Source of the DNA: Umbilicaria muhlenbergii
Taxonomy: Eukaryota > Ascomycota > Lecanoromycetes > Umbilicariales > Umbilicariaceae
Assembly: GCA_000611775.1 (NCBI GenBank)
Contig: KK106982.1
Coordinates: forward strand, 5,040,391 to 5,104,390
Direction of reading: 5' to 3'
DNA length: 64,000 nucleotides
The notes under the pieces are model-generated. The model searched no databases and was not told the origin of the DNA. It saw only the letters and a list, made by a program, of their open reading frames with translations. Of the stretch, positions 1 to 62,094 are shown one piece after another (within the stretch, counting starts at the first letter, position 1; each line of letters opens with the position of its first letter). The position numbers were made by a program, and so were the translations under genes.

Positions 1-476
1 TGTTCAATAAGGCTTGCATGAGTATGACATCATCATTGTGAAGAACTTGTTCATCAACAATTAAATTAAACTCTGAGGCTACTTTTGTTCAGCACTTCAG
101 CAGTGCAGAGCCTTCACTGAAGCATTTTCATTTTTTGATGCTGAAACAGCTGCAATCAGGGTCTTATTCAGGTTTAAGTTTTTCACAGGCTGTGAACAAT
201 CAGGGAAATAATGTCTCTTCTGATTGCAATTTCAACAAGTCATGTGTGACAAGTCCTTTGTTTCAGGAGCCTTCACTGATTCACTTTCATGTTTATTATC
301 TCACTTGCTCTTCATCTTGTTCTCATCAGACTTATGATCCTTATTCTCTGCAGGCTTTAATGATGACTCAGGTTTGCAGCTGAAGGTAACTGTCATATTA
401 GAATTTGCTTTCAATTTCATGATGCCTCTCAAATGTAGATTATTCTTCAGGTGTGTAGTTAAAGTGATGATTTTTT

Positions 477-719
477 TCAAGTTGTGAGTAAGTCCTGATA
501 ATTCATCAAGGCTGCATGAACCTCAGACTTCAATTTTGTGAAGAAGTGAGTCCTCATGTGCTCTTCACTGTAAGGAGGTAACTGAGCTTTCAAGGTGCTT
601 AAATAACTATTGAAAGCTTGAACTGATTGATGAGGTAATTGAACAGCATCATTATACAGCTGAGCAGTGTAAAGCTGACAATTCACAGGGTCCTCAATAA
701 TGTTGAGCAGGAATTTCAT
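477..719 (-). pseudogene. Gag-like fragment of family A
   Basis: An 80-residue open stretch inside the family A fossil. It contains pieces such as QSVQAFNSYLSTLKAQLPPY and a helix-rich tail, which resemble the retrotransposon gag domain that forms the virus-like particle in Ty3 elements. It is a remnant of a longer gag gene that continues on both sides. I do not think it is a functional host protein. Confidence 0.65.
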
Positions 720-1420
720 AAAATCATCTCAGGTAACAGTGAAATAATCTTTAATCTCATCATCTCACAGTCACGCCTCCTTGAGTTCACTCTTTAAGTA
801 TTGCATGACATAAATCATCTTATCTTCCTCATGAGGGAAATCAGCTGAGTTAAAATGAAAGGTATTTCTTGCATCTCATATTCAATTCAGGTGCTCTTTC
901 ATGTTCTTATCATGATATAACAGCAACTCCTTTGCCTGAATTCTTGATTGTACATTTCATATTGACAGTGTTTCATCAGCGCGGCACTTGCTCATTATGA
1001 ACTCAGTGTTCATAAAGTTAAGGAATCTCTCAGCTGAGGTATCAACATGAGTAGCAGGATCTTTGAGTAAATTGATTTTCAGTGTTAAGACTTCTATTCA
1101 GAGCTGCTGCAGCTCTTGTTGCTTAAGAAGTTCATCTCACTGTCATCTCACTTGCATGATCTTATTATTGATGTTGTGCATCATTTCACCTGAGGATCCT
1201 TCACTCATGAGGTTCACTTCACTGATGTCAGAGGAAATGAGTGATGTTTCATGATCATTTTGCTGATTCTTCATCATCATGTCTCATTCTGCTTCAGAAG
1301 TTTAACATAATTGGTTTTAAATCTGCATCTTATCTCAGGCCATCACTCTTTGAAAGGTAAAGTTATTAAAACTGTAAGATTATAACATCTCTTATTAGAA
1401 AGGAAAGTATAGTTGAGGTG

Positions 1421-1600
1421 TGTGACAGCGTGAGATATAAATGTATAAGGGTTATATGATTCTAACTATATAGAACTAATAACTAAGGAATGAAGGTGAG
1501 ATTGAGCAGTGCAGAGTTTTCATGTGACTCATTAACATTGTCAAGTCACTTGTAAGGCGCATGCCCTACGTGAGTCTCAGATTGTCACTAACCCGTGACA
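1421..1600 (-). repeat. LTR of family A (180 bp)
   Basis: It begins TGTGACAGCG and ends CCGTGACA, so both edges carry the TG...CA ends of an LTR and a short inverted terminus (TGTGACA/CGTGACA). It keeps several CpG sites, unlike the gag region to its left. The gag-like region lies to the left on the minus strand, so this is the 5' LTR. Confidence 0.7.
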
Positions 1601-1975
1601 CAGGTCATCATGATGATGTTTATAATGATGAATTTGAAGTCAATTGGCATCAGGGACGGCGCCATGAGAAGGGAAATGCTGTGTCAGAGCCATCATATAT
1701 AGTAGTATGACAGTATGACAGTACAACAGTATGACAGTATGACAGTACAACAATACATCATTATAACTCACTTATATAATGACTCAGTGAGTAGCACCTT
1801 AGCATCAAGTGAAAACTCTTCACAAGGAGATTCAAAAACCTGCTTCCTCAGTGATCAGTTTTGCCACTGAATAAAAGATGTATAATCATTGCATTGACCT
1901 CATCATGACTATATTGCTTATGACACTTCATTCAAACATCATTATGATGCTCTGTTGTACACTTCACCTCTTACA
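1601..1975 (+). mobile_element. 3' end of a family G element: polypurine tract plus LTR (fossil)
   Basis: Positions 1601-1681 match the reverse complement of about 20930-21010 and end in a purine-rich stretch (GAGAAGGGAAATGCTG) directly before an LTR at 1682-1975. That LTR starts TGTCAGAGCC and ends in TTACA. It matches the G LTRs at 13411-20929 and 60717-61003. It contains a short CAGTATGA/CAGTACAA repeat near its start. The rest of this G copy is missing: family A abuts on the left and family D on the right. Confidence 0.75.
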
Positions 1976-7554: not shown

Positions 7555-10500
7555 ATGAGGTATCCTGAATGAATTCTGAATCAGATTGAAATCAAACCAG
7601 AATTAAAATTAAAATCAGAACTCAATCATGATGATTACAGAATTCAGTAATGTAATTTACTCATGAATCAGAGAGTCTTTATTAACTTCTGTGAATAATG
7701 AATAATTCTTCACCTTGAATGAAAATCTGATTAATCAGATCTTGACAGCTTCAACTGCAGAGACTCTGATTAACCTTTTACAGAAATATTCCTCTGAAGT
7801 AATGACTGCTCTTCAATAATTAATCACTGATCATGAGCAGTCTTTGAATGAAATTGACACTGTTATAAAGGCACAAGAAGAACTTTAAGTGAATTACAAA
7901 AAAATGAAGAATAAGAACAAGAAACTGAAGAAGAAAGTTATTAAACAAGCTGATGTGATAACATACTTTAAATGAAGAATCATAATTATCTTCATAAACA
8001 TCCTCTGACCTGATTCTTCTTGACTCACAGTTGAAGGATTATTCAACTTCAGATTATTAAAGCTCTTTGATTCACTGATGTTCTTCAATGATCATTCAAA
8101 ATATGATGAATGAGTAATGAAGATCAGAAACTATTTATTAACAATAAATGAATAATATCTCACTGAATAGATGAAAATAACATATGTGAAAATCAGGATT
8201 GAGGGTGACCCTGTTAAGCACATAAAGTCTCAAATGAATTCAGCATCTTGAACAGTTTATTTAAATATTATTAAACTATTAAAACATTTGACCTGAATCT
8301 ACAGAAACTCTGATTAAAAACATATTATCACTGATGAATTCTGTAAACTTTATTAAGAATTTAAAGACTTCTCATCCTTTTAAGCTGATTTTCAGTGATA
8401 TGTTACTGAACTGAATGAGTTCTTTAATTTATACTGAATAGGAGAACTTCTGAACAAGGTGAACAACATCATTCAATAATAATTAAACACTGATGATGAC
8501 AGACTTGAAGATCTTTATGAACTCATCAAGTGCTGTCAGTGAATCAATCAGACCTTATGACTGCTTAATGTAAAGAAAATCATTAAACTGAATCAAACAC
8601 CCCCCTTCACAAGTCAAACTCATACAAGGACTGAATGTTTTATTAAAACCTCAAAATCAATTACCTGAATAATCACTGAGTCAGTTCCCTGAACTGAATG
8701 AATAAATTGAACATCACACTCAGACGCTGCCAAAAAACAACAGATGAAGAAAGGATGTTGTTTTAAATATAATAAACAAAAGCATCTTGCCTTAAACTGT
8801 TTAAACAAAAAGAAAAAGACTTCAGTATTAAAATGCATGCAATGAATCATATCTGAATCTGATTTTAATTTTAAATCAGATTCAGGAAAAGGCGTTCTTC
8901 TATTAAAGTCATGATAAGGAATGATGATAATCCTTTTGTAATATCAGTGTTGATGATCAATGAAGACATGCTGTTCACTTGAACCTCATTCAAAGTGAAT
9001 TGCAAGCTCACACTGAATGAGATTAAGTTATGAGTCAAGGCTCTACTTGACACTGAGTCAATTAAATATGCATTCATTAATGTTAACCTGACAAAGACTC
9101 TGATTGAATGATCTGAAATTAAAGCAGTATCATTGCCAAAGCTCTGAACTTTACATGATTTTCAGAAGAAGACAGTGAGATGAGTTATATACATAATTTA
9201 TTCAATCATGAAGGTCTGCAGTCATTCTCAGTGACTCATCCTCATGATGATTATAAACATGAAAAATCTCAGCATTATATTAAGACTTTTTTGAATGAAT
9301 CACACCTGAATTTTAATCAACCCTGCAAACTGAGTAGTGATTTTCTCACTGAATGAAACAAACTGAATAAACCTGAATGAATGAATTAAACTGAATGAAT
9401 GAATGAAATCAAATGAACAAATGACTCTGAAGAACTAAACACTGAATAAATGAATAAATCAAATGATTAAACTTGAACTGCTGAAAACTTATCAGATCTT
9501 GAAGAAATTCATTTTAAAAGCAGATCCTGAATCAGCAGTTAATATTAAAATAATTAGCACAGCACTGTTCACATTAAATATGAAGAAAGGCAATGAAATC
9601 TTTGTTATCTTTATTTAACAGATGAAGGAAGCATTGAATTTTAAATTAAAGTCAAGTGAACTGAACATTAAGATGATTCTCTCTTTCAAATATCATGACC
9701 TGATTGATGTCTTTTTTAAAAAGACTGCAAATGAACTCTCTTTGCATCAACTTTATGATCATAAGATCATCTTAAAAGATGAATAAAAGCTCAGATACAC
9801 ACTCCTCTACAACATGTCACATGAGGAACTGATAGCAGTGAAGAACTACATAAAAGACAACTTACAAAAAAGTTTTATTGAAGTCAGTCAGTCATCAGTG
9901 ACCTCATCAATTCTGTTTATATAAAAGAAAGATGATTCTTTATGACTGTGCATTAACTATCAAAAGCTGAATTTGATTATAAAGAAAAACTGATACTCAT
10001 TACCTTTAATTGAGGAAACCCTGACTCAGATTTCAAAGACAAAATACTTCATCAAGATCAATATACAACAGGTATTTCATCACATATAAATAAATCCTGA
10101 ATCTGAAGACTTGATAATCTTTTGAATGAGGCATGATTCTTACAAATATAAGGTCTTACCTTTTGAACTCATCAACAGATCAGTCATCTTTCAGCACTTT
10201 ATTAATGATGTATTATTCAACTTATTGAACACATGCTGTACAACATATTTGAATGATATCTTAATCTATTCAGAATTCCTGTCTGAACATTAAACTCATA
10301 TTTGAACTGTTCTAGAATGACTGAGAAAGGTGAATTTGCAGACTGAAATCAAGAAGTGTGAATTTCACAAGATTGAAACTCAATACTTAAAACTGATCAT
10401 AAGATGTCATGACATCTGAGTAAACTTTAAAAAGATCACAGTTATAAAGACTTAAGAAGTGCTCATTAATTTAAAACAGCTGCAGGCATTCTTAAGTTTT

Positions 10501-10557
10501 TGTAACTTTTTCTGATGATTTATAAAGGAATATTTCAAAATTATAAAGTCTTTAATC

Positions 10558-11336
10558 TACGGTGGCTGTTGAGATGAGATGAGATCAGATTTTTAGTCTC
10601 TGTCTCATCTCAGTCTCATCTCATCTCAGTGATGAATTTTCAGTTCAGTCCCGGTCCTGTTGACTGAACAGGACAGGAATAGTCCCGTTGTCTTGACACT
10701 ATTGATATGTCATGATGACAATAACCTAAGCTTAACCTAAAGAGGCTTGATACAGTATCACATTAAGTTAGATGTCATCTAAGGAGTCATCAGTTTACAT
10801 TTCATCATAAATTGTTACATTGAATCATTAGAATTATTAATTTGAATCTCAACATCATGTAACAATCAGTTCACTGACTCTCAGTCACATTTTGGCCGTT
10901 TTGAAAGCCGTTTTTTGAGGCCGTCGTTGAGGCCGTTTTGAAAGCCGTTTTTTGAGGCCGTCGTTGAGGCCGTTTTGAAAGCCGTTTTTTGAGGCCGTCG
11001 TTGAGGCCGTTTTGAAAGCCGTTTTTTGAGGCCGTCGTTGAAGCCGTTTTGGAAGCCGTTTTTTAAGGCCGTCGTTGAAGCCGTTTTGGAAGCTGTTTTT
11101 TGAGGCTGTCATTGAAGCTGTTTTGGAAGCCGTTTTTCCCTTTTCCGTGTCCCAAAACCACTGACAGTCATATAAGAAGTCACGTGACCGGGATCCTGCT
11201 GAGACCACAGGATGGGATGAGACAGGACTTTCATCTCAGTCCTGAGGGACAGGACTACTGCTTGATCTCATATTTCATCCTGTCCCATCCCGTCCCTTCA
11301 TCCTGAACCGGGACTCCCGTCCCGGCGGTCACCCTA
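10558..11336. mobile_element. Non-autonomous hAT transposon (779 bp)
   Basis: The element is bounded by an exact 8-base target duplication, CTTTAATC, at 10550-10557 and 11337-11344. Its ends are imperfect inverted repeats: it starts TACGGTGGCTG and, read from the other side, TAGGGTGACCG. An 8-base duplication with such ends is typical of hAT elements. The last 200 bases align with the right end of the large hAT at 20690-20890, so this is probably a deletion derivative moved by that transposase. It has no transposase gene. Its middle holds a 37-base minisatellite. It sits inside the polymerase region of a family C fossil and is therefore younger. Confidence 0.9.
10894..11140. repeat. 37-bp minisatellite in the small hAT (about 6.5 copies)
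   Basis: A 37-base unit starting GGCCGTTTTGAAAGCCG repeats at 10894, 10931, 10968, 11005, 11042 and 11079, with a partial unit after. The left units are nearly identical and the right ones more diverged. It keeps many CpG sites. Both strands read open through it, but the resulting peptides (repeats of TASKNGFQNG type) are by-products of the repeat. A related repeat occurs at 43550-43700. Confidence 0.9.
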
Positions 11337-12090
11337 CTTTAATCAGACTGACAGGCAAGAACATACTCTTTAATATGTAAATTGAACAGTGTCTTCAAGC
11401 CTTTAGTGAACTAAAGAACTGATTGATTAATGCATTAATATTACAACACTTTGACTGAACTTGAATCTGTTATCTTAAATATGATTCATCTGATCTGATA
11501 TTCACAGGAGTACTATCTCAGAAAGATGATTAAAAATTAATGCATTTAATGACATTTTTCTTTAAGAAACTCATATCAGCTAAATACAATTATGAAATTT
11601 ATGACAAGGAATTGTTAATTATCATTTAAAGTTTAAAAGAATGATGCACTGAACTGATTAAAACAGAGGATCTGATTTAAATCTTAACTGATTATAAAGC
11701 TCTGAAGTACTTTATAATGATCAAGAAACTGACTCACAGATAAGTCAGATGAGCTGAATTTCTCTTATAATTCAACTTTGTGATCACCTACTGAACAGGC
11801 AAGGAAAATGAAAAGGTGAATACACTCATTAAACACTCAAGTAATCAACTAAAGAAGAATGAGGATGATGAGTGATTACAATATTAATCTTAAATCATGC
11901 TACTGAGCTGCTGCTTAAATTTATGTATCATTGCTGAACAAAAGGAAAGAGCTTCTCAGCTTTTAAAATCAACTGAACAGGCTTTAAATGATTTAAATAA
12001 TGATTTAAATAATGTTCTGAACAAATCAACCCTGAACAAATCAACTGAACAGGCTTTAAATGAAACTTTAAATGAGTTGATTATCTGTTA

Positions 12091-13210
12091 CATCTGCAAC
12101 TTGGCAGCCCGCTCAAAAATAAGATTTTAGTTAATAATACTTTATGCGCTCAGAGCACTCTCTGAGCAGTAAATGAGCTCATACAGATTTTACACTTTAA
12201 ATAACTATTATACCTTCATGAATAATAAGAAACTTTTTATTGAAAAGTTTTAAATCTCTTTATTCTGTACACTTTACAAACTAAAGATTTCTTCATAAGT
12301 TTTAATTTGCAATAGTTATGAATTAAAAAACTTTTAACTAATTATAAATATATTAGCATATTGAATAACTATTGCGCTTTTATACTGATGATATAACTTT
12401 CAGTTTATAAGTTATAGAGAAGAAGCTATTAAACAGTTCTATAACTTAAAGTTTTTTTATAACTGTTGTTGTTAAAAAGTTACATTGATTTCAAACTTCC
12501 AGTGATGAAAATCACAACATTAATAAACAGACTTTTAATGACTTTTTGAATAACTCAACAACAACAACACATAAAAAAAAACTTTGTATAAGAAAACTCT
12601 TAAACAGCTTATTCTCTACAACTTATAAACTAAAAGTTATATCATAAGTATAAAAGCGCAATAGTTATTCAAAGTATATGACTTTTTTTGAAAGATTTTT
12701 CGCTATTAAAAACTTGAATTAAATATAACTTAACAACAACAGCAGTTATAAAGAAACTTTTAATTTAACATTAATAAAAAATACTATTCTTTATAACTTA
12801 TGCATTGAAAGTTTCTTCATATCTGTTGAGGTGCAAAAGCTATTAAAGTGTGTAAATTTTTAAGTGATGAAAATCTTGAAGTGCTTTAAATATTCAGAAC
12901 TCAACACTTATACAGTGCTTTCAGACTCAACAAATCATGATTTTTGATTGCAGAAAAGTGAATTTTAGCAAAAGTTTACTTATTATAAATTTTACTGTTA
13001 TTATAACACTGCGTGTGTACTTGTTTAAACAATTGTTTTAATAATTATTTTCTTATCACAAAATTTTGATGTTCCGCTCAAGATTTAAGGTTGAGCTCAA
13101 AGCGCTCAAAGGGTGCTAAGAGCAGCTGTTAGCTGAGACATGAGATCAGAAGCTCAGAGCACTCAAAGTGTTAAAAATTAACTCAAAGTTAACTTACTAA
13201 ATTGCTGATG
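12091..13210 (+). mobile_element. IR-1, inverted-repeat element, copy 1 (1120 bp)
   Basis: One of four copies of a non-coding element with imperfect terminal inverted repeats of about 24 bases (CATCTGCAACTTGGCAGCC at one end, the reverse of CTTACTAAATTGCTGATG at the other). Subterminal blocks are rich in GAGC/GCTC motifs. The AT-rich middle contains long inner inverted repeats: about 12360-12445 pairs with 12600-12680. No coding capacity is visible. The left flank is family C and the right flank is family G, so no clear target duplication can be read. I regard it as a non-autonomous DNA transposon of unknown superfamily. Confidence 0.7.
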
Positions 13211-13410
13211 TGCATTAATATGTTCATCATTGTCATTGACAATGTCAGAAGCAGAGGTGTCAACAGTTAATAATGTAGACTTGTTAATTAAAGGCTCTGA
13301 TTTAATTTAATTGACTGCTTCACTGATCTGATGAGATTGAAGTGTTGATGTCATCATGTCTTATTTACTTCTGACATGACTGTTCACCTGAAGGTACTGA
13401 GCAAGCAGTA
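13211..13410 (-). mobile_element. Family G 5' leader and gag fragment (fossil)
   Basis: This short piece matches the inverted sequence of about 44078-44260 at the start of the plus-strand G copy. On the minus strand it follows directly after the end of the G LTR at 13411, as a leader would. Only the beginning of a G element survives here; IR-1 abuts it on the left. Confidence 0.65.
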
Positions 13411-13667: not shown

Positions 13668-14507
13668 NNNNNNNNNNNNNNNNNNNNNNNNNNNNNNNNN
13701 NNNNNNNNNNNNNNNNNNNNNNNNNNNNNNNNNNNNNNNNNNNNNNNNNNNNNNNNNNNNNNNNNNNNNNNNNNNNNNNNNNNNNNNNNNNNNNNNNNNN
13801 NNNNNNNNNNNNNNNNNNNNNNNNNNNNNNNNNNNNNNNNNNNNNNNNNNNNNNNNNNNNNNNNNNNNNNNNNNNNNNNNNNNNNNNNNNNNNNNNNNNN
13901 NNNNNNNNNNNNNNNNNNNNNNNNNNNNNNNNNNNNNNNNNNNNNNNNNNNNNNNNNNNNNNNNNNNNNNNNNNNNNNNNNNNNNNNNNNNNNNNNNNNN
14001 NNNNNNNNNNNNNNNNNNNNNNNNNNNNNNNNNNNNNNNNNNNNNNNNNNNNNNNNNNNNNNNNNNNNNNNNNNNNNNNNNNNNNNNNNNNNNNNNNNNN
14101 NNNNNNNNNNNNNNNNNNNNNNNNNNNNNNNNNNNNNNNNNNNNNNNNNNNNNNNNNNNNNNNNNNNNNNNNNNNNNNNNNNNNNNNNNNNNNNNNNNNN
14201 NNNNNNNNNNNNNNNNNNNNNNNNNNNNNNNNNNNNNNNNNNNNNNNNNNNNNNNNNNNNNNNNNNNNNNNNNNNNNNNNNNNNNNNNNNNNNNNNNNNN
14301 NNNNNNNNNNNNNNNNNNNNNNNNNNNNNNNNNNNNNNNNNNNNNNNNNNNNNNNNNNNNNNNNNNNNNNNNNNNNNNNNNNNNNNNNNNNNNNNNNNNN
14401 NNNNNNNNNNNNNNNNNNNNNNNNNNNNNNNNNNNNNNNNNNNNNNNNNNNNNNNNNNNNNNNNNNNNNNNNNNNNNNNNNNNNNNNNNNNNNNNNNNNN
14501 NNNNNNN
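13668..14507. other. Assembly gap (840 N)
   Basis: A run of undetermined bases. It begins immediately after the left target duplication of the large hAT, so it should contain that transposon's left terminal repeat and possibly the end of a minus-strand gene. Reading frames spanning the gap are artefacts. Confidence 1.
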
Positions 14508-15830: not shown

Positions 15831-15985
15831 TGCTTATACAGCACAATCTGATGATGAGAATGTGCAAACTGAGTAAATTTTAAACTCTTCAACACCCTCT
15901 GTTCTTACTACCCCTCATAAGCCGCGCACAAAGTGAATAAAGACTGAAGTGAATAGTGATATTAGCAGTTTTTAAACAAAGATCA

Positions 15986-17679: not shown

Positions 17680-20601
17680 ATGATTTCTTCACAATTTACT
17701 TTTACTTCTGAAGACAGTTAAGCTTCAGCTTCACAGTCAACTTCTGTTGACCTCTTATTTATCACTGAATCATCATCAGCATGTCTTTTATGAAACAGAA
17801 AGAATGATTATGTTCTTTGAATCTCTGAGTTTCATGATGAATTTGAAAAGTGGTGAGAGTGAATGAAATAAGGTCAGGATACACTCAAGAAGATGATAAG
17901 ACACAAGCCTGTTCTTTAAGATAATACAAAGTGAAAGGCTCTGCTGTGAGCATCATATCATGAGGTTGTTGAAATTAAAACTGAGAAGCCTGCTGTTATC
18001 TGTAAACTTTGTGAGAAAGTTCTGAAACATTTTAATTTTAATGATGCAGGGAGCAATGATATGACAAAGCATATCAACATCAAAAATTGTGAGGTGAATT
18101 GAACAGGGCAGATGACTTTTTCTCAATTATTACAAAAGGTACTGACTTCTTTAAACCTCTGTTATAACAATTTATTCTAATGATATGACTTCAGTTCATC
18201 AACTCTGTACTCATTAAGCTCACGTTTAGCAGATTTACACAAGAAGCCTTTAAAGATTAACTTGTTTAAATAATTCTTAACCTCAACATGTCTTTCTGCT
18301 CAGTTGAACATTCCTCATTTTTATGCTTGCTTGATTTTCTTCAACTTGATGTTGAGGTTTCTCATCAAATCAAGTTCTCTCACCTTGTCAAGAAGTGAGC
18401 AAAGGAACTTAAAAAAACTGTGTTAATAAAATTAAGATCAAGGATGAAAGTTTCTTTAGCACTTGACTGTTGAACAAGTTCAAATAACCTTGCATTCCTT
18501 GACATCACTGATTACTTCATAGATGATAATTAAGATTATCATGAGGTTCTTCTTGAGTTCTCTCCTCTTCACGGCAAGCATACAGGGAAGAATTTGATAA
18601 AGATGATAATAAATGTACTTAATAATTATGAGCTCCTGAATAAGCTCCTTGCTATCACAGCTGACAATGCCTTGAACAATGAAACACTGTACATAAAGTT
18701 GACATCACTGCTATGAAAATGAAAGATTCATTGAAATGAAGACATGAATACTGTCAACTGCATGACACATGTCTTTTAACTATTCATCAATGCACTACTA
18801 CACTCACTCAAAGTGTCAGCAAACAATGACAATCCTACAAAGAAGTGAGATATCAAAACACTGAGTCAATTAAAAGAGGTGCATGAGAAGGATAAAGACT
18901 TTAATTTTACATTTTGAAAGGTTTTAGTCTTTTTAATGATATATTATAATGATCAATTAACTTTGCGTTCAGGTCCGTGCATTAGTCATTGCAGTCAACT
19001 CATCATCACAATGACTTGAGAGATATAAAGTCACTCAGATTAATACACCCTCTTATTTGCAGAAGGGCTTAATTGAAAATGTTGTGACAAGATGAAACAG
19101 TTTTTTCTTCATGCTTAAATGAGCATATGAGATGCATGAGTTCAGCAGAGAATGAATAAAAGAGAAGAAGTTTATATGATGAGTTTTAATACTCAGTGAC
19201 ACTGAATGAGAGCAGATCAGGTATCTCATCAGTTTATTATAATCATTTTAAAACTTTACAGATGCGCTGAGAGTGACAGATCAATTAAACATTTTTTGCA
19301 TTTAAATCATTTATAATGAACTTTTCAATCATTTAGAGTGACAGCGTCAAGAAGTTTGAAAGTTTAAACTCAAATGATCTTCTAATCTGCAGGAGGTTAT
19401 TGCAGCAGCAAAAAATAAACTTTCAGCATATTATGAATGAACATATGATGAGTGAGGAGTATTGTTTGCAGTAGATGCCTGCCTTGATTCTTCTTTAAAG
19501 CTTGATTTATTCAAGGTAAGCAGTCAACATTTTTAATGATTTATTGTAATGATTTTAAACTTTATATTCTAATCACTACTGCAGGGCGCTGAATGAGACT
19601 CTGAGGATTATGCACAGTATCAACAAGAGTTCCTTGATTATTATGAAGTGAATTATCAAGAACAGGAGATTATTCAGTATCAGTCATGACAGCCTGCATC
19701 TTTTAACATGATGAAGAAATCCCTGAAGAGTGTTCTTCTAACTTCAAGAAGTTTCACACTTCAGAGATCAAGAGAGTGAAGCCTCATGATACTTTAATGA
19801 AATGAAATTAAAGCATGACAACATTCTTCTTTTATGAAAACAGCTGAAGATCAGTAAGCCTGTTTTATCACAAATGACAAAGGACATTCTTGCTATATCA
19901 GTAATTAATGTAGGTGTGAAGCGCCTTTTTTTCATGACATGAGATGTTGTTACTTATTATCAGAGTCACTTCAACTCAGACATTATATCTGACATCATGA
20001 TAATCAAAAAATGTGACACTACTCACATTCATGATATGATGGCACATGAGGAAGATATACAATAATATACTCAAGATGATTAATCTCCTCCTGCAGATGA
20101 ACTCACCCCTAATGATCAAGAATGTGAAACACAGTGAGTGAATATGAATGATGCTGAGAGTCTTACTCACATTTCTTTATCACATGATGAAGGTGATGCA
20201 TCAAATGTCAGACATAAAGATGAAGGAGAATATATGTCAGCACATAAAAGAGGAAAATAATGAGTCATTGAAGTATTCAAGTATGTTACTTAATGTAATA
20301 TATTATTGTCTGTCTAATAAGAAGCAGTGATACTGAGGAGTTAATGAATGAGGATTATGATGTGAATGAGCTGAATGATGATGAGCCTTGAGCATTATCA
20401 TTTAATGTTAATCATATGAGGTCACCTGCAAAGCTACAGAATGTTACTGATGTAACTGAAAACTTAAATGAGCTATCAATTCTATCAGGTCAGCATGATA
20501 AACCATTAAACTTAAGTTTCATACTCATGAAAACATCAATCAGCTCAAGAGCAAGACTAGGATATGTCTTGAGTAACAAGAGACAGCTGCAAAGAAAATG
20601 A
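17680..20601 (+). pseudogene. BED-finger hAT transposase, multi-exon, decayed
   Basis: This gene would cut and reinsert the transposon. Its ATG at 17680 follows a TTAAGACAGC context. A BED zinc finger lies at about 17992-18093, with cysteines in AVICKLCEKVLKHF and partners in TKHINIKNC. An RNase H-fold core follows: LLEFSPLHGKHTGKN near 18550, LLAITADNALNNETL near 18645-18690, and a CMTHVF motif near 18755. The C-terminal dimerisation region is at about 19855-19945 (LSQMTKDILAISVINVGVKR). An acidic tail and a basic end (RARLGYVLSNKRQLQRK) finish at 20601. Introns include about 18140-18193, about 18920-18972, 19217-19260 and 19514-19584. Stops, mostly TGA, interrupt several exons, so it is inactive as read. 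Confidence 0.85.
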
Positions 20602-20689
20602 TCAAGATTAAAGTCATTAAGATAAATTGATAGTCTAGATCATTATAATGAATCATTACAATATATTAATTTCCCTGTGTCTGAATTAA

Positions 20690-20890
20690 CCTTTCCCCGT
20701 GTCTCAAAATCACTGACAGCCATATATAAAAAGTCACGTGATCAGGATTTCACTGAGATTAAAAGACAGAACAGGACAGGACTCCTGTCTTAATCTCAGA
20801 GGACAGAATTATTATTTAATCTTGTATCTCATCTCATTCTGTCTTATTCATTCATCCTGAACTGAGACTCCTGTCTCAGCAGTCACCTTA
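20690..20890. repeat. Right terminal region of hAT-T
   Basis: It aligns through most of its length with 11140-11336 of the small hAT, including CACTGACAG and AGTCACGTGA blocks and the terminus (CAGTCACCTTA against CGGTCACCCTA). Most clear differences are C/T or G/A changes at CpC or CpG. This region probably holds the transposase binding sites. Confidence 0.85.
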
Positions 20891-22719: not shown

Positions 22720-22960
22720 AATTCTTAAGATTCATAACTTTTGCAACAGCTTCTCAATTGACCTTGAAGAGTCACATCTTAAGACTCATGACTTTTGTGA
22801 CAGCTTCTTAATTAACCTTGAAGAGTCATCTCTTAAGGCTCATGACTTTTGCAACAGCTTCTCAATCAATCTTGAAGGATCACATTTTAAAGCTCATGAC
22901 TTTTGTGACAGCTTCTCAATCAATCTTGAAGAATCACATCTTAAGACTCATCTGAATTTC
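22720..22960 (-). repeat. 54-bp tandem repeat (about 4.4 copies)
   Basis: A unit like TTAAGACTCATGACTTTTG followed by a GACAGCTTCTCAAT block and CTTGAAGAGTCACAT recurs every 54 bases. The unit is a multiple of three (18 codons). It lies between the chromodomain remnants and the small frame of family G. Differences between units are mostly C/T and G/A. Confidence 0.8.
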
Positions 22961-24691: not shown

Positions 24692-25061
24692 TCATGACTT
24701 GCTTCTTGAGCATATAGGTCACGGACTGCTGATGTTTCAGTTATATCATCAACTTCAGTATTCATTGTATTAATATGTTCATCATGGCTTGCTTCTTAAG
24801 CATGTAAGTCATGAACTGCTGATGTTTCAATCATGTCATCAGCTTCAGCATTCATCATATTAATATATTCATCACGGCTTGCTTCTTAAGCATGTAGGTC
24901 ATGAACTGCTGATGTTTTAATCATGCTGTCAACTTCAGTATTCATTGTATTAATATATTCATCATGACTTGCTTCTTGAGCATGTAAGTCATGAACTGCT
25001 GATGTTTCAATCATGTCATCAACTTCAGTATTCATCATACTGATATTATTCATTGTGACAG
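24692..25061 (-). repeat. 90-bp tandem repeat between RNase H and integrase of family G (about 4 copies)
   Basis: Units start at 24692, 24782, 24872 and 24962, each beginning TCATGACTTGCTTCTTGAGC or a close variant. Ninety bases equal 30 codons. On the minus strand each unit reads like AQEASHDEYINT followed by an acidic part and VHDLH. A related but more diverged array lies at about 48570-49230 in the plus-strand G copy. It probably encoded a flexible acidic linker. Confidence 0.85.
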
Positions 25062-48569: not shown

Positions 48570-49230
48570 CATAATGAATATTACTGATATAATAAACACT
48601 GAAGATGATGATCTCATTAAAACATCAATGATGTGAAATCTACCTGCTCAAGAAAAAGCAAGCTGTAATGAAAATGATGAAAGTATCATGTCAGATAAAG
48701 TCAGTGATATTATTAAAACATCAGCAGTGCATCACCTACTCAGGATGATAATTACTGAAAATGATAATCTCATCAAAACATCAGTGATGCAGAATTTATT
48801 TACTTAAGAAGAAGCAAGCTGTAATGAACTGCAGTTAAAACACTTAATACAACAGAAGTTATAACAAAAGAATGTTATATCTGTCATAATAAATACTACT
48901 GATACAATGAATACTGAAGATGATAGTTTCATCAGAACATCAGTGATGTGAAACTTATTTACTTAAAAAGAAGCAAACTGTAATGATGAGAGTATCATGT
49001 CAGAGACTGATGATATGATTAAAATATACACAGTACATTATTTACCTGCTTTAAAAGCAAGTTGTGTCATGTTGAAAAAATCAGTAATCTCATTAAAACA
49101 TCAGCAGTGTGAAATCTACCTGCTCAAGAAGCAAGTCATGTCATGTTAAAAGAAATCAGTGACATCATTAAAGTACACATCATGCAGCACTTATCTGCTC
49201 AAAAAGCAAGTTATTACTCAGTCAGAGAAT
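48570..49230 (+). repeat. Diverged acidic repeat array in family G
   Basis: Phrases such as CATTAAAACATCA, GTGATGTGAAATCTACCTGC and AAGAAGCAAGC recur at irregular spacing. They correspond to the 90-base units at 24692-25061 but with more units and deletions. Copy number therefore varies between the two G copies. Confidence 0.65.
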
Positions 49231-51689
49231 TTAAATATGCAGAGCCTCAGCAGCACTTAATTAAAAATAACTTAACAAACACTGAAGTTATGAACAGTGA
49301 TGTAAATCATGTTCTTATTAATCTTTAAATTGAGAATAATGCTTCTGTTGACACTGTTAAAGCACTTCAACTCATGTTTACTCACTCATCAATAGGTGAG
49401 GAGATAACAGCTTATATAAGAATGTTCATTAAACAACTTGAATATACAATTCATACTGAGCAGTCAAAAGATGATTTGATATGATGAGTACAACAGAGAT
49501 TAACTACCTCTATTGAGGATAAAAACAACTTGACTGAGTCTGAGATAATAAATATGAATATAAACATGAACCCTGAAATGATTATGACATCAGAGATGCT
49601 GTCAAATATAACATTTATACTGTTAAATGTATGAAAATATTGACAAGAAAAAGATGATGTCATACATTATGACAATAAGATTTACATTTCACAGAACTTT
49701 GCTCTTCACAATGTAATGATCAGTTAATATCATGATGATGTCTTCACAAGTCATTTCAGGAAGTCAAGAATGACAAAATTAATATAATAATCTTATGATT
49801 AACTTGATGCTGTCAGAGATGTATAATGTTACTGTTATAATTATGTTGAATGTCAAAAAGTGAAGTCATCTCATTATAAGTCATACAGGTTACTGTACTC
49901 ATTATCAGTCTCAATTAAATCATGACATATAATAACAATGAACTTTATTATGAACCTGTCACTGAGCAGCACATATAAAAGTATGACATAAAATTCAATC
50001 CTCATTGTAGTTGATAAGGTTGATTAAAATGACTCATTATATTTTTGTACAGAAGACAATGTCAGTTGCTGACTTCATTAAAGTGTTTATTTAAGACATT
50101 ATTAAGCATCATGACATGTTAAAAGTTTTAATCACAGACAGAGATAAACTTTTTACATCAGAGTAATGAATCAGCTTCTACTTTCACATGTGATGCTGTT
50201 ATAACATGTTAACAGCTTTTCACCTGCAGACTGATGATTAAACTGAGAGGCAAAATCAGTCCCTGAAGATGTATTTATGCATATTTGTTAATGAGCAGTA
50301 AGAGAATTAAGTGAAGCTCTTATCTTGCATTAAGTTCTCATACAACAACTTCATACATGCTGTCATAAGTATGAGTTCCTTTCAGCTTAACTTAAGATGA
50401 GATTCTCAGATGAGCTTAAGCAGGCTGTTTATACAACACTCACATAAACAAATAAAATCTTATACAGACACACAGCAGCTTCAAGATTAAATTGCAACAA
50501 CTTAAAAGTGATTATGACAAGTTAATGAAATATATGCAAACTATTATAATCAGTGCTGAATGAAGATAACATTCAAAGAAGATGATTTAATACTGATTAA
50601 TGAAAAAAATATGTCAGTGAACAAGCAGATGAAGAAACTGCACTAAAAAAAGCTTAACTCATTCAAGGTATAACATGTGATAAGTTAATCATCATATGAA
50701 CTTGACCTCTCAGAGGATTAAAATATTTATAACATGTTCAACATCACTTTATTGAGTTATTTTAAAACACATGTCATGTGTTCTCTGCTTTAACAGGAAA
50801 AAACCTACTACTTAATCAAGATGATGAGTGAGAAGTTGAAATAAGTATAAATAATTACATTCATGACAGCAGGCTTCAATACCTCATTAAATAAAAGCTG
50901 ACAGATCAGATGTGAGATAACATATAAAAGTTAACACACTTCATTCATAATGTAAAGACAAACATGTGAAAATTTCATGCTGATAACTTTGATAAGCTGA
51001 AATTCAGATGAGTTGTATGATGTGAACATAATTGAAGATCATCTTATCTACATGAAAACTTTATTAACTTTATTCAATCTGATTTTTTATGATGAAAACA
51101 TAACAAAGCCTTATGACAAAAATATGATTAAAATTATAAAAATTATGTTGCTTTTTACAGAGAACACTACAGGTCACATATGCATGATATAAATGTTAAA
51201 ATGAGAAAATAATTTTATTATTAATTATTCATCTGTTGTCTTATTTTCTTCTTCATTATTTAATGAAGTCTTTAATTTCATCTTTTTAATATGATGTTAT
51301 TCACAGAGTTTAATATACTCCTGATGATGATAAAATTAATGAGCATTAAGGACATGAAGAGCATGAGCAATGCTTTTTAATAAGATAATAAAAACTTAAA
51401 TGAGCTTCTCAGAATTATTAAATTAACACATATCAACCTCAAGAAAGTCAAGAGACTCATGTTGAAAAACAGCTGCAAGAAATGTGAAGAATGTTAATAA
51501 TAATTAATAAAAGACAACAGCATGAGGATTAATTAATCAACTGTTAAATGTTATACACAATTAACATATCAATAGTATGACAGTATAACAGTATAACAGT
51601 ATGACAAAATGTTATATGTACAACAAGTACAACATAATTATATTAAATGAAACAAAATAAAAGAAAATTAAGAAAAGTAAATTTACAGT

Positions 51690-54566: not shown

Positions 54567-54793
54567 TTATCTTCTTCTCTGTTTAATGAGTTCTGTGAGC
54601 TGATCATCTACTTTTCTGCTTTGTTGTTGATGTATTCAGTGACTCAATTAACTTATTTGAGTACCTTTCATGAAACATCTCTTTCAGTTCAGGTGAGTGT
54701 TTGAATTCATCAGTGTTATATTAAGTCTTGTTAAGTGAATATTCTTTTCATGTCACTCTGTATTGTAATTTATTTCTTCATCAACAGCTGTCA

Positions 54794-55617
54794 CATCCGC
54801 AACTTGGCAGCCCGCTCAAAAATAAGGTTTTAGTTAATAGTACTTTATGCGCTCAGAGCACTCTCTGAGCAGTAAATGAGCTCATACAAATCTTACACTT
54901 TAAATAACTATTATACCTTCATGAATAATAAAAAACTTTTTATTGAAAAGTTTTAAATCTCTTTATTCTGTACACTTTACAAACTAAAGATTTCTTCATA
55001 AGTTTAAAAAACAGCTTATTCTCTACACCTTATAAACTGAAAGTTATATTATAAGTATAAAAGCGCAATAGTTATTCAAAGTATGTGACTTTTTTTGAAA
55101 GATTTTTCGCTGTTGAAAACTTGAATTAAATATAACTTAACAGCAACAGCAGTTATGAAGAAACTTTTAGTTTAACATTAATAGAGAATACTGTTCTTTA
55201 TAACTTGTGCATTGAAAGTTTCTTCATATCTGTTGAGTTGCAAAAGTTATTAAAGTGTGTAAATTTTTAAGTGGTGAAAATCTTGAAGTTCTTTAAATAT
55301 TCAGAACTCAACACTTATACAGTGCTTTCAGACTCAACAAATCATGATTTTTTATTGCAGAAAAGTGAATTTTAGCAAAAGTTTACTTATTATAAGTTTT
55401 ACTGTTATTATAACACTGTGTGTGTACTTGTTTAAACAATTGTTTTAATAACTGTTTTTTTATCGCAAAATTTTGATGTTCCGCTCAAGATTTAAGGTTG
55501 AGCTCAAAGCGCTCAGAGGATGCTAAGAGCGGCTGTTAGCTGAGACATGAGATCAGAAGCTCAGAGCGCTCAAAGTGCTAAAAATTAACTCAGAGCTAAC
55601 TTGCTAAATTGCTGATG
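54794..55617 (+). mobile_element. IR-1, copy 4 (824 bp)
   Basis: Same termini as copies 1 and 2 (CATCCGCAACTTGGCAGCCC ... AAATTGCTGATG). Part of the inner inverted-repeat region is missing. Both flanks belong to the same family C element, so this is the cleanest insertion of the four. CA is present on both sides. Confidence 0.8.
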
Positions 55618-55975
55618 CATCAATTTGTTCAACTTATCATTTCAGTTCAGCCTGTTCAGTTATTATCAGTGACGGTAATGACTTAATTTGTTCAGGCAAA
55701 GGATCATTCACAGTGAGTTGTAATAAAAAGATATGAGATACAGAGTGTATTTTCATTAATTCAAGCAGTTCAAGTTCATATGTTTAAGCTGATACTTTCT
55801 TCTTAATTTAAAAAGGTCCTTTATTCTTGTGATTCAGCTTTTTGAATGAGTGAGTTATTTAAATATTTTTTGTCAACAATCATATCAGGCCTCTCACTTT
55901 ATATGTTGAAGTTAATGTTTAAATTCTGTTCATGAAATCTTCTTGTTGAAGTTGTGCTGCTGTCATGTTATCTTG

Positions 55976-57459: not shown

Positions 57460-58275
57460 GATTTAAGATTAAAATTATAATCACTCATCATCTTCATTCT
57501 TCTTTAGTTGATCATTTAAGTGTTTAATGAATGCATTCACCTTTTCATTTTCTTTGCCTGTTCAGTAGGTGATTACAAAGTTGAATTATGAGAAAAATTC
57601 AACTCATTTGACTTGTCTATGAGTCAATTTCTTGATTGTTATAAAGTACTTCAAGATTTTATGATTTATTAAGATTTAAATCAGATTCTCTGTTCCTGCT
57701 AATTCAGCACATTATTTCTTTAAACTTTAAATAATGATTAATAATTCTTTGTCATAAATCTCATAATTACATTCAGCTGATATGAGTTTCTTAAAGAAAA
57801 ATGTCATTGAATGCATTAATTTCTGATCATCTTTCTGAAATAATACTCTTGTGGATATCAGATCAGATGAGTCACATTTAAAATAACATGTTCAAGTTCA
57901 GTTGAAGTGTTATAATACTGACATGTTAATCAGTTGATTTTTTAGTTCATTAAACGCTTAAAGACACTGTTCAGTTTACATATTAAAGAGTATATTCTTG
58001 CCTGTCAGTCTGATTAAAGATTTCATGATTTTAGAATATCCCTTTATGAATCATCAGTAAAAGTTACAAAAACTTAAAAATGCCTGCAGTTGTTTTAAGT
58101 TGATCAGTATTTTTCAAGTCTTAATGACTGTGATCTTTTCAGAGTTCACTTAGATGTCATGATGTTTTATGATCAGTTTTAAGTATTGAGTTTCAGTCTT
58201 GTGAAATTCACACTTTTTGATTTCAGTCTGTAAATTTGCCTTCCTCAGTTGTTTTAAAATGGTTTGAATATGAGT

Positions 58276-58479
58276 TTAATGTTTGAACAAGAACTCTGAA
58301 TAAATCAAGATATCATTCAAATATATTGTACAACAGATGTTCAATAAATTAAATAATACATCATTAATAAAGTGCTGAAAAGTGACTGATTCATTAATGA
58401 GTCTGAAAGGCAAGATTTTATATTTGTAGAAATCATGTCTTATTTGAAAGGTTGTCAGATCTTCAGAATCAGGATTCAT
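58276..58479 (-). pseudogene. Reverse transcriptase palm fragment of family C
   Basis: A 67-codon open stretch reading PDSEDLTTFQIRHDFYKYKI and then INDVLFNLLNICCTIYLNDI, followed by LIYSE. This is the Ty3 reverse transcriptase region leading to the catalytic motif, here YLND in place of the usual YLDD. The corresponding region of copy 1 lies near 10100-10280. It is a fossil fragment. Confidence 0.75.
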
Positions 58480-59099: not shown

Positions 59100-59335
59100 C
59101 AATCATTCAGTTCATTCATTCATTTGATGTTCAGTTCTTCAGTTCAGTTTGTTCTTTTGATGTTCAGTCCTTCAGTTCAGTTCATTCATTCAGTTTCATT
59201 CATTCATTTGTTCAGTTCTTCAGTTCAGTTTGTTTGTTCAGTTTCATTCATTCATTCATTCAATTCTTCAGTTCAGTTTATTCATTCATTCAGTTGTTCA
59301 GTTGTTCATTTAGTGAGAAAATCACTATCTGATTT
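59100..59335 (-). repeat. TTCATTCA/TTCAGTTC-rich linker repeat in family C
   Basis: Short words of 4-5 bases alternate in a tract that is longer here than at the same place in the plus copies (9345-9470 and 36590-36685). The plus-strand frame at 59088-59345 is a by-product. Confidence 0.75.
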
Positions 59336-60716
59336 GCAGGATTGATTAAAATCTGAGTGTGATTCATTCAAAAGAGTCTTAATATAATGTTGAAATCTTT
59401 CATGTCTACAATCATCATGAGGGTGAGTCACTGAGAATGACTGCAGACCTTCATAATTAAATAAATTATATATATAACTCATCTCACTGTCTTCTTCTGA
59501 AAATCATGTAAGGTTTAAAGCTTTGACAATGATACTGCTTTAATTTTAAATCATTCAATCAGAGTCTTTGCCAGGTTAGCATTAATGAATGCATATTCAA
59601 TTGACTCAATATCAAGTAAAGCCTTGACTCATAACTTAACCTCATTCAGAGTGAGCTTGCAATTCACTTTAAATGATGTTCAAGTGAACAGAATGTCTTC
59701 ACTGATCATTAATATTAATATCACAAGAGGATTATCATTGATTTTTATCATGACTTTAATAAAAAAACACCTTTTCCTGAATCTGATTCAAAATCAGAAT
59801 CAGAATCAAATATGATTTATTACATGCATTTTAATGTTGAAGTCTTTTTCTTTCTGTTCTTATTTAAACAGTTTAAGGCAAGATGCTTCTGTTCATTGCA
59901 TTTAAAGTAACATTTTTTCTTTATCTGTTGTTCTTTGACAGCATCTGAGTGTGATGTTCAGTTCAGTGTTCAAGGAACTGACTCAGTGATTATTTAAATA
60001 ATTGATTTTAAAGTCTTAATAAAATGTTCAGTCTTTGTATGAGTTTGACTTGCAGAAGAAGATGTCAGTTGAGGTTTAATAATCTTCTTTGCATCAAGCA
60101 GTCATAAAGTCTGATTAATTCACTGACAGCACTTAATGAGTTCATAAAGATCTTCAGGTCTGTCATCATCAGTGTTTAATTATTATTAAATGATGTTGTT
60201 CACCTTGTTCAGAAGTTCTCCTATTCAGTATGAATTAAGAAACTCATTCAATTCAGTAACATATCACTGAAAATCAGCTCAGAAGGATGAGAAGTCTTTA
60301 AATTCTTAATAAAGTTTATGAAATTCATCAATGACAGTACATTTTTGATCTGAGTTTCTGTAGATTCAGGTCAAATGTTTTAGCAGTTTAATAACATTTA
60401 AATAAGCTGTTCAAGATGCTGAATTCATTTAAGGCTTTATGTGTTTAACAGAGTCATCTTTAATCTTCATTTTCACATATGTTATCTTTATCTGTTCAGT
60501 GAGGTATTGTTCATTCATTGTTAATAAGTAATTTCTAATCTTTGTTACTCATTCATCATATTTTAAACAGTTATTGAAGAACATTAATAAATCAGAGAGC
60601 TTTAATAATCTGAATGATTTTTTAACTGTGAGTTGAGGAAAATCAGGTTGAGGAGTGCTCATGATTATGATTCTTTATTCAAGGTATGTTATCACATCAG
60701 CTTGTTCAATGACTTT

Positions 60717-61003
60717 TGTCAAAGTCATCATATATAGTATGACAGTACAACATTATGATATGACATTATAATACAACACTATGATATGACATTATAACTT
60801 AAATATGATGACTCAGCGCTTAGCACTTTGACATCAAGTGAAAACTCTTCACAAGAAGATGCAGAAACCTGCTTCCTCAGTGATCAATTTTGTCATCAAA
60901 TAAAAGATGTATAATCATTGCATTGACTTTATCATAATTATATTGCTTACAACATCCTGTTCAAACATCATTATGATGATTGTTGTACACTCAGTTTTTT
61001 ACA
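60717..61003 (+). repeat. Solo LTR of family G
   Basis: The 5-base duplication ACTTT at 60712-60716 and 61004-61008 frames a 287-base LTR (TGTCAAAGTCATC ... GTTTTTTACA). It lies in the gag region of the family C element. These clean edges define the true ends of the G LTR used elsewhere in this annotation. Confidence 0.9.
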
Positions 61004-61444
61004 ACTTTCTTTTTTAATTTCTTATTTTTATTCTTCATTTTTTCATAGTCTGCTTGTAGTTCTTCATGTGCCTTTATAATGATGTCAATTTCATTCAAAG
61101 ACTGCTCATGATCAGTGATTAATTATTAAAGAGCAGTCATTGCTTCAGAGGAATGTTCTTATAAGAGATTAATTAAGATCTCTGCATTCAGAGTGATCAA
61201 GATCTGATTGATCAGGTTTTCATTTAAAATAAATTGTTTATCATTCACAGAAGTCAATAAAGACTCTTTAATTCATGAGTAAATTACATTATCAGTTTCT
61301 CTGATCATCATGATTAATTTTTGATTTAATTGTAATTCTGATTCTGATTCTGATTCTGATTCTGATTCTGGTTCAATTTCAATCTGATTCAGAATTCATT
61401 CAGGATGCCTCACAGCAAAAGATAAAAAAGAGAGATTAAAATAA

Positions 61445-61707
61445 TGTCAAGATTATGCAAATTATAAATCAATGCATGTGTTTTGACAGCTGACATTTAG
61501 TTACAGAGAAGAATTTTAATCTAAGAAGCAAAAGAAAGAAAAAGCATGAAGATTAAAACTTTTATGTACATGTTAAGCTCATTAGTTTAATCACTGTTAA
61601 TTTATTCAATTTAAGCGCTGCTAACCTGTTCAGTTATTCAGTTCAGTATATCATTCAGATCATTCAGTTCATTCAGTTCAGTTCAACATTCAGGTGTAAA
61701 CCTGACA
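61445..61707 (-). repeat. 5' LTR of family C (263 bp)
   Basis: It starts TGTCAAGATTATGC and ends GTAAACCTGACA. The C leader (TTTTAATCTC... to the AGGATGCCTCA words) lies to its left on the minus strand, so this is the 5' LTR. Confidence 0.8.
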
Positions 61708-62094
61708 ATTGCATGACTGATACCTTGTAAGTTGATGCTTAAAGTGTAACAAGTGATGTTGTAGTGATTGAAGTAGTACTGTCATTCATTGAACTGTTCA
61801 TATTACAAGTAATCATGAATAGAATTAGAAGATAGAATTAGTAAATTGCCTTTGATACATGAATTGAGCATGAGCTCATAACTATGAATCTACCTGTGTT
61901 TATATAAACTATAGAAGACTCATGTGATCAAGGTGATCATAATGATCAAACCCTCAATCACTTCAAACAGCTCAATCACTCTGATTAAGATGATCAAGGT
62001 GTTTAAGTCTTCACTCACCTTGATCACTTCAATCAGTACCAGCTGTTCACTGTGTGTGCATACTTTCAAGTACTAATCTGATTAAGTCATAACA
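61708..62094 (-). mobile_element. Family D 5' LTR and primer-binding region (fossil)
   Basis: Positions 61708-61744 match the sequence next to the D LTR at 30990-31026, and 61745-62094 is the LTR itself (TGTAACAAGTG ... GTCATAACA). The D body should continue to the left but is replaced by family C. The mutated, AT-rich block ends at the outer edge of this LTR. Confidence 0.75.

Follow-up and report, generated by a model that had tools for sequence, protein, structure and literature searches.

What process has degraded the AT-rich DNA that makes up positions 1-62094 of the window, the whole stretch of 64,000 nucleotides analysed here? The initial annotation had proposed a RIP-like hypermutation aimed at CpG and CpC rather than at CpA.

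A block of decayed transposons and its host flank

The block consists of decayed transposable-element DNA with a GC content of 0.31 (Table 1). The observed/expected dinucleotide ratios were 0.10 for CpG, 0.46 for CpC, 1.46 for CpA and 1.19 for CpT, versus 0.89, 0.98, 1.09 and 1.06, respectively, in thirteen GC-normal 10-kb host loci; the depletion of CpG and CpC was absent from these thirteen loci. To build the host set, 17 10-kb loci were sampled at round-number positions; L016, L024, L030, L031 and L032 were excluded as AT-rich in part or throughout, and the right flank of the window (L014) was added. L015 reads N at 9941 of 10,000 positions. Block-to-host trinucleotide ratios were 0.01 for CGA and 0.07 for CCA (both GC-corrected), 0.34 for CTA and 2.11 for TCA/TGA, and the pattern agreed in the AT-rich segments of eight other loci, being weaker in L032 (CGA 0.21). 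The annotation's remark that CA and TG stay abundant and that TGA and TCA abound is borne out by these values. CGA and CCA together (CSA, both strands) occurred at 1.6 per kb in the block versus 73.1 per kb in the 13 host loci, figures that are uncorrected for GC, and such targets reappeared at about 62,100-62,700.

Table 1 Features of the window. Strand is given as + or -, or as a dot where it does not apply.
Feature	Position	Strand	Remark
AT-rich block of decayed transposable elements	1..62094	.	CpG/CpC-depleted, nearly without CGA and CCA; from GC and target density
Repeat family X1, copy 1	7579..9442	+	alignment
hA left 8-bp target-site duplication	10550..10557	+	CTTTAATC, identical to 11337-11344
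hA, young non-autonomous hAT element	10558..11336	+	779 bp; far fewer mutations than flanks
hA right 8-bp target-site duplication	11337..11344	+	CTTTAATC, identical to 10550..10557
IR-1 repeat	12072..13237	+	GC 0.26, few CSA targets
Stretch reading N	13668..14507	.	outside the analysis
Weak hAT dimerisation-domain match	19784..20008	+	three TGA stops; just upstream of hB end; G000:C2:5060174-5060398, E 6.9e-4
hB, hAT right end, heavily mutated copy	20077..20890	+	17 copies aligned
Repeat family X2, copy 1	22934..25125	+	alignment
IR-1 copy	32917..33826	+	outside the IR-1 alignment
Repeat family X1, copy 2	34828..36686	+	alignment
IR-1 copy	36660..37806	-	
Repeat family X2, copy 2	48818..51025	-	alignment
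IR-1 copy	54764..55641	+	
Empty site, related host element without hA	58005..58030	-	reverse complement = ...CTTTAATCAGACTGA, insert missing
Repeat family X1, copy 3	59228..60716	-	alignment
Host DNA begins	62095..64000	.	normal dinucleotides regained within ~600 bp

Members of the hAT family carry short terminal inverted repeats and are flanked by a target-site duplication of 8 bp. Both were found in hA, which has the ends TACGGTGGC and TAGGGTGAC and additional copies elsewhere. Its interior holds 19.3 CSA and 42 CG per kb, while its flanks (1 kb on the left, 650 bp on the right) hold 0.0 of both. This young insert has thus kept targets that both flanks have lost, which counts in favour of a mutator. 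For the second hAT family, hB, 6 of 13 dimerisation-domain matches directly adjoin hB right ends.

A skew towards TGA stops was seen genome-wide in reverse-transcriptase relics, by a count obtained without aligning copies to each other. Stops occurred in 149 of the 150 matches scored (out of 877 candidates), with 682 TGA (85%), 106 TAA and 15 TAG, counts that are not independent because the relic copies are related. TGA predominated on all seven contigs.

Sequence context of the C-to-T changes

The annotation had noticed that differences between two hAT right ends were mostly C/T at a C followed by C or G. Its example was found again, as GTCCCGGCGG within 11140-11336 and as GTCTCAGCAG within the copy at 20077-20890, and the bias proved stronger than it had stated, both in composition and in aligned copies. 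Across 29 aligned hAT right ends, the share of C changed to T was 43/404 at CpA, 40/346 at CpT, 474/1724 at CpC and 412/1217 at CpG. This alignment left out 9 of 37 matches (one of them a 29-base piece) and included the window's own copy at 20697; five of the nine were retrieved later, of which four entered the set of 17 hB copies and the fifth is L056. CpG exceeded CpC, and both exceeded CpA and CpT, at all ancestral-C cut-offs from 5% to 50%, though at 50% the contrast was smaller (A 0.14, C 0.18, G 0.23, T 0.16), probably through mis-calling of mutated neighbours at that cut-off.

Tree-based rates, which treat C-to-T as irreversible, gave 84/2882 (CpA), 144/2502 (CpT), 267/1843 (CpC) and 228/1042 (CpG) for 13 hB copies and, in the same order, 37/2306, 87/1979, 227/2628 and 348/2268 for 14 hA copies. 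The hB copy of the window was itself mutated at 11/117 CpA, 16/97 CpT, 33/95 CpC and 28/56 CpG. Unrelated families concurred: the mutated fractions were CpG 86/208, CpC 87/311, CpT 107/877 and CpA 114/1080 in three copies of X1, and CpG 152/360, CpC 81/324, CpT 105/984 and CpA 139/1368 in three copies of X2, the third of which lies in L016. For IR-1, which was said to behave likewise, four copies pointed in the same direction with few targets (CpC 6/68, CpG 13/120, CpT 45/773, CpA 21/655); in the copy at 12072..13237 the remaining CpG is chiefly GCG/CGC. Tree-free pairwise counts agreed as well. An all-against-all comparison yielded 575 HSPs, 540 within five tabulated identity classes and 35 outside; for the 76 HSPs with 85-90% identity the C/T fractions were 0.114 at CpA, 0.172 at CpT, 0.293 at CpC and 0.439 at CpG, with C transversions at about 1%. 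The order was absent from the 95-100% class, which comprises 5 HSPs and few sites (CpA 8/228, CpC 4/74, CpG 6/70, CpT 22/250).

The base at +2 also mattered. We fitted a logistic model with a per-branch term and a block bootstrap of 60 to 17 hB and 14 hA copies (31 in all; L056 was omitted as a duplicate of L055), covering 1669 changes in 19,984 opportunities as counted before branches with fewer than 3 changes were dropped. Relative to CpA, the odds of C-to-T change were 16.0 (13.4-22.4) for CpG, 10.0 (8.4-14.0) for CpC and 3.2 (2.1-5.0) for CpT. Relative to C at +2, they were 7.6 (5.8-10.9) for A, 2.7 for G and 1.7 for T; relative to G at -1, they were 3.1 for C and 2.5 for T. A UV-type dipyrimidine signature was rejected, the main effects lying at +1 and +2 and that at -1 being smaller. 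In the hAT families the effect of A at +2 persisted in every +1 class when only +2 columns constant in the inferred parents were used: CCA 108/405 versus CCC 39/762 and CCT 91/1110, CGA 85/294 versus CGT 210/1347, CTA 100/703 versus CTT 58/1407, and CAA 59/1392 versus CAC 7/706. The preference for CpC and CpG stands at +1 but captures half of the signal, which is better described as the trinucleotide C-[G>C>T>A]-[A>G>T>C], with C-(G/C)-A as the best target. It likewise accounts for why TCA and TGA are so common.

A probable RIP-like mutator and the alternatives to it

We considered the possibility that the result is an artefact of base composition, family or method (an AT-rich origin, saturation or biased ancestral states). 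The rates do move with the ancestral-C cut-off, and IR-1 is TA-rich and CC-poor. Yet 40 context-free C-to-T simulations for each of two families, run through the same pipeline, gave a flat result (mean rates 0.07-0.09), and the agreement of unrelated families on the +1 order, the tree-free counts and the alignment-independent stop skew all speak against an artefact, which we consider highly improbable and largely refuted here. C:G to T:A transitions were concentrated in repeats and spared single-copy DNA (the 13 host loci), as in RIP. CpA was the least or near-least mutated dinucleotide in the DNA-transposon alignments and never reached CpC. Because neither CpA rates equal to or above CpC nor the same bias in host DNA, the two contrary outcomes that the initial annotation had named, were found, its proposal of a different targeting specificity is well supported.

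Classical RIP indices point elsewhere: TpA/ApT was 0.68 and (CpA+TpG)/(ApC+GpT) was 1.62 in 1-62094, against cut-offs of >= 0.89 and <= 1.03 quoted in a passage of PMC3828140. Both standard indices would thus score the block as untouched; they would miss these mutations because the three-letter signal, C-(G/C)-A, differs. RIP-negative calls elsewhere may therefore be wrong, and the index (CGA+CCA)/(TGA+TCA) should detect similar cases.

The genome encodes RID/Masc1-like, DIM-2-like and DNMT5 methyltransferases (three DNMT genes plus one fragment). The first, a PF00145 match in L010 that is open across a predicted GTAAGT...TAG intron, we provisionally assign to RID/Masc1 on its motifs PPCQ and EQT; DNMT5 carries methylase, SNF2 and RING domains. 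A MAT1-1-1 alpha-box gene is present and, as a separate observation, so is a UvdE gene, which would speak against Pseudogymnoascus destructans if that species has lost it. No 5.8S rRNA match turned up among the 39 of 1116 candidates scored, and comparing a helicase with solved structures was uninformative as to species.

Taken together, the transposon DNA of the block was probably degraded by a C-to-T mutator that is RIP-like, driven by a cytosine methyltransferase, and reads a spaced signal; most likely it represents RIP, or a process closely related to it, in which target recognition has changed. Such a mutator would recognise 5'-C-[G>=C>T>>A]-A-3' in place of the classical C-A. Each event would convert CGA to TGA, CCA to TCA or CTA to TTA, so that the products would all read T-N-A on both strands, a dead end like TpA in classical RIP; within reading frames, these conversions would make TGA stops out of Arg CGA and Trp TGG codons. 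A single enzyme, presumably the RID/Masc1 homologue or, next, the DIM-2 homologue, would be responsible and would itself carry the altered recognition, with homology as the trigger before meiosis. As to the label 'RIP', the altered specificity is supported; that the process acts before meiosis and in response to homology is an inference from its products and from the methyltransferase genes present. The full proposal, a homology-directed defence by one cytosine-methyltransferase-like enzyme reading C-S-A (C-N-A), a register-shifted RIP with T-N-A as dead end and TGA as preferred stop, is tentative, and we rate it a little below an even chance.

The main rival is slow deamination of 5-methylcytosine, in which DIM-2 and/or DNMT5 would methylate heterochromatin with a C-S-A preference and the sequence would decay vegetatively without a homology trigger. 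Besides the presence of both genes, it gains from the distribution of changes over the strands: neighbouring changes on a branch fell on the same strand in 682 of 1613 cases, versus 796 expected (z -6), and this alternation above expectation gives no hint of the tracts on one strand that a RIP event should leave. Passages of a fungal survey tie DNMT5/DNMT1 to CG methylation (PMC7862722), and Amselem et al., in the part of PMC4352252 consulted, ascribe CpG signatures to methylation plus deamination. Against it, and against CpG-only decay in particular, CpC was mutated nearly as strongly as CpG; the effect of A at +2, seen at CpA, CpT, CpC and CpG alike in the hAT families, is not predicted by symmetric-CG maintenance; and columns with transitions outnumbered those with transversions 16-21 to 1 within families (244:14, 232:11 and 109:7). 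We regard this rival as rather unlikely. If instead CpG methylation decay were overlaid on a separate CpC-preferring mutator, the unequal strength of the two contexts and the number of DNMT genes would be accommodated, but CpG and CpC loads covaried across copies (Spearman 0.86, 0.93 and 0.95 in three overlapping alignments) and shared their +2 dependence in the hAT families. A single enzyme fits better than two processes because the +2 A effect is seen in every +1 class, and we find the overlay improbable.

Some observations sit less well with the RIP-like mutator. In X1 and X2 the +2 A effect was clear at CpT and CpA, but weak at CpG (CGA 28/58 and 40/88 versus 0.33-0.44 for the others), and CCA (6/15, 11/26) did not exceed CCG (24/56, 28/61); this counts against it. 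One duplicated DNMT5 gene fragment (L011 versus L012, a single pair, 79% identical) had changes at 13/66 CSA, 27/123 other CpS and 30/239 CpW, a mild CpS excess without a +2 A effect, ambiguous as a directional test of RIP. The near-identical 2.1-kb pair L055/L056, considered as a test for a recent event, differed too little to weigh either way: 4 transitions, none of them at CSA, in a span of 31 bp. Finally, hAT copies with readable flanks mostly sit in AT-rich DNA, so homology targeting is inseparable from chromatin targeting in these data.

Comparison with known mutators

As in the RID-dependent RIP of Neurospora crassa, we observed repeat-concentrated C-to-T transitions, AT-rich blocks of relics, genes of the RID/Masc1 and DIM-2 types, and a product without C at the target on either strand. 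The preferences differ: a passage of PMC5496416 quotes CpA>CpT>CpG>CpC for N. crassa, whereas here the order is CpG>CpC>>CpT>CpA and A is preferred at +2, so that the hAT odds run nearly in reverse. Trichoderma reesei, another ascomycete with RID and DIM-2, also has a non-classical dinucleotide preference (reported as CpA and CpG roughly level and CpT ahead of CpC; PMC5496416), but there CpC is the poorest target, and here it is a main one. CpG is likewise the top dinucleotide in the RIP-like mutation of Aspergillus nidulans MATE, Tuber melanosporum and Microbotryum; unlike here, CpA is added to CpG in A. nidulans and Tuber, and Microbotryum targets CpG only, with TpCpG, according to passages of PMC2621366 and PMC4352252, whose accounts of these systems gave neither CpC as a main target nor a +2 A rule in the parts consulted.

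A 2025 survey of 1,239 fungi (PMC12543289) concludes, in the section consulted, that a preference for CpA is common to RIP-like defences; in the present case CpA ranks last as a target. Were the process RIP, the pathway could have its target specificity exchanged wholesale, comparison with CpA-type RIDs would locate the target-reading residues, and one could ask which enzyme picks the mutated base. Uncinocarpus reesii may be a case of the same kind: a passage of PMC7862722, which itself gives no CpC or +2 A analysis, links its gain of CA/TG, the feature on which we compare it, to RID and RIP and describes methylation without CG preference.

Context of the C-to-T changes

Within the 34.79-Mb, seven-contig genome the window occupies C2:5040391-5104390, and its positions 1-62094 have a GC content of 0.31 and are rich in repeated and inverted element relics. 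In this decayed block, CpG and CpC were depleted (observed/expected 0.10 and 0.46, versus 0.89 and 0.98 in 13 GC-normal 10-kb host loci), while CpA and CpT stood at 1.46 and 1.19 (host, 1.09 and 1.06). Densities of CpG, CpC and CSA (CGA + CCA) came back up over about 600 bp at the host boundary. Among 17 10-kb loci at round-number positions, AT-rich DNA was found mainly in L030 and L031 and partly in L016, L024 and L032.

The initial annotation had proposed that C-to-T changes concentrate where C precedes C or G. Across 29 aligned copies of the hAT right end, the changed fraction was 0.106 at CpA, 0.116 at CpT, 0.275 at CpC and 0.339 at CpG. The same order appeared in tree counts for hB (the hAT right-end family) and hA (a young non-autonomous hAT element) and in the repeat families X1 and X2; the IR-1 repeats, with few targets, showed a weak trend. 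Tree counts used FastTree topologies, with C-to-T and G-to-A held irreversible and both changes and opportunities classed by parent context. A regression with a per-branch term (17 hB and 14 hA copies) gave odds, relative to CpA, of 16 for CpG, 10 for CpC and 3.2 for CpT. Tree-free pairwise counts gave CpG>CpC>CpT>CpA in every identity class between 70 and 95% (four classes, 535/575 HSPs), with C transversions at ~1% in the 85-95% classes; the order was absent at 95-100%, a class too small (n = 5 HSPs). When inferred hAT roots were mutated without context and then analysed identically (40 simulations for each family), mean rates were flat, at 0.072-0.088 across every class, and the CpG/CpC pattern is therefore not created by the method. 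Alignment, trees and pairwise counts confirm and extend the proposal: the difference in targeting, towards CpG/CpC and not CpA, is real.

C-to-T changes by following base (tree counts as changes/opportunities)
Context	hB, 13 copies	hB, short branches only	hA, 14 copies	X1 and X2, 3 copies each
CpA	84/2882	5/931	37/2306	0.10-0.11
CpT	144/2502	8/810	87/1979	0.11-0.12
CpC	267/1843	31/710	227/2628	0.25-0.28
CpG	228/1042	33/428	348/2268	0.41-0.42

The base at +2 and its footprint

An effect of the second downstream base (+2) was noticed first in the pairwise data, where pseudoreplication is a concern; it persisted in the regression (odds relative to C: A 7.6, G 2.7, T 1.7) and with unchanging +2 columns alone. 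In the hAT families it was present within each +1 class, so that the simplest reading would be one recognition event with preferences G>C>T>A at +1 and A>G>T>C at +2. In X1 and X2, A at +2 clearly raised the changes at CpT and CpA and did so only weakly at CpG; it was no better than G at CpC.

Composition agrees with this trinucleotide rule. Window/host ratios were 0.01 for CGA, 0.07 for CCA, 0.11 for ACG/CGT, 0.17 for CCG and 0.34 for CTA, and 2.11 for TCA/TGA and 2.23 for CAG/CTG. The plus strand of the block lacks CGA altogether, and its TCG number just ten, of which five lie within the young hA element. The pattern recurs in AT-rich DNA at eight more loci, less strongly in L032, and GC-normal segments show little of it (CGA and CCA 0.77 and 1.27 in L016, 0.64 and 0.96 in L024).

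The rule would turn Arg CGA and Trp TGG into TGA stops. Stops occurred in 149 of 150 scored reverse-transcriptase matches (among 877 candidates) across all seven contigs: 682 TGA, 106 TAA and 15 TAG, in related copies, so that these are not independent events. Base composition alone predicts TAA as the commonest stop; the rarity of TAG fits, since its complement, CTA, makes it a target too.

Age and load of the copies

CpC and CpG loads increased jointly across copies (Spearman 0.86, 0.93 and 0.95). In the five least mutated hB copies, 1-2 of 116-117 CpA, 14-28 of 94-95 CpC and 16-22 of 55-56 CpG were changed. The young hA insertion has a perfect 8-bp target-site duplication, with an empty-site relic elsewhere, and retains 19 CSA/kb, with none in either flank; decay therefore tracks the element and its age. 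In IR-1, CpG survives mostly as GCG/CGC, the block's least depleted CpG context, which may explain the 93-97% identity of many IR-1 stretches.

Features of the window and of other loci
Feature	Position	Remarks
hA unit array	10857-11152	12/13-bp units, 37-bp period
Relative of hA array	43547-43704	inverted, mutated
IR-1 copy	12072-13237
IR-1 copy	32917-33826
IR-1 copy	36660-37806
IR-1 copy	54764-55641
Run of N	13668-14507
Tandem array	15413-15838	142 bp; in decayed block
Tandem array	22723-22938	54 bp; in decayed block
Tandem array	24692-25046	90 bp; in decayed block
161-aa open frame	26496-26981 (-)	no Pfam match; final stretch resembles a Gypsy-type reverse transcriptase, by motif
Host boundary	~62,100
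L015	10 kb upstream of window	nearly all N
L055/L056	C2:3318310/C2:1528626	2.1-kb AT-rich duplicate, 99.8% identity; 4 differences, all transitions, within 31 bp at one end
Reverse-transcriptase match	C3:3998714-3999376	the only stop-free one of 150
DNMT5 gene	L011 + L053 (C5)	methylase, SNF2, RING
DNMT5 paralogue	L012 (C1)	truncated, with stops

Candidate mechanism and known systems

The genome encodes DIM-2-like, RID/Masc1-like and DNMT5 methyltransferases and a MAT1-1-1 alpha-box gene, a set from which a filamentous ascomycete can be inferred. DNMT5 alone is unlikely to be the agent, because it is described in PMC7862722 as a CG maintenance enzyme, which leaves CpC and the +2 rule unexplained. 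A variant of repeat-induced point mutation (RIP) with a C-S-A target is, in our judgement, rather probable; its agent would most likely be a RID/Masc1 homologue acting in RIP style with changed target recognition, and a DIM-2 homologue would be the second candidate. Strand clustering of changes was not found in the hAT copies, which counts against a simple RIP picture.

Part of the CpG/CpC pattern may already be known from relatives, since CpG depletion has reportedly been seen in Coccidioides repeats. Full-text searches listed no paper recognisable as describing mutation that favours both CpG and CpC and also A at +2; the papers covered included PMC2432034, PMC5555474, PMC3017866, PMC7493409, PMC7882544, PMC5872316, PMC6141143 and PMC7296669, and PMC11969663 gave no match to the terms searched. 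The literature on known systems includes RIP in T. reesei and, separately, the dinucleotide order of N. crassa (both PMC5496416), the RIPCAL analysis (PMC2621366), CpA, CpT and CpG signatures set beside DNMT classes (PMC4352252), M. haptotylum without a CpA drop (PMC3828140) and a CpA preference shared in a survey of 1,239 species (PMC12543289).
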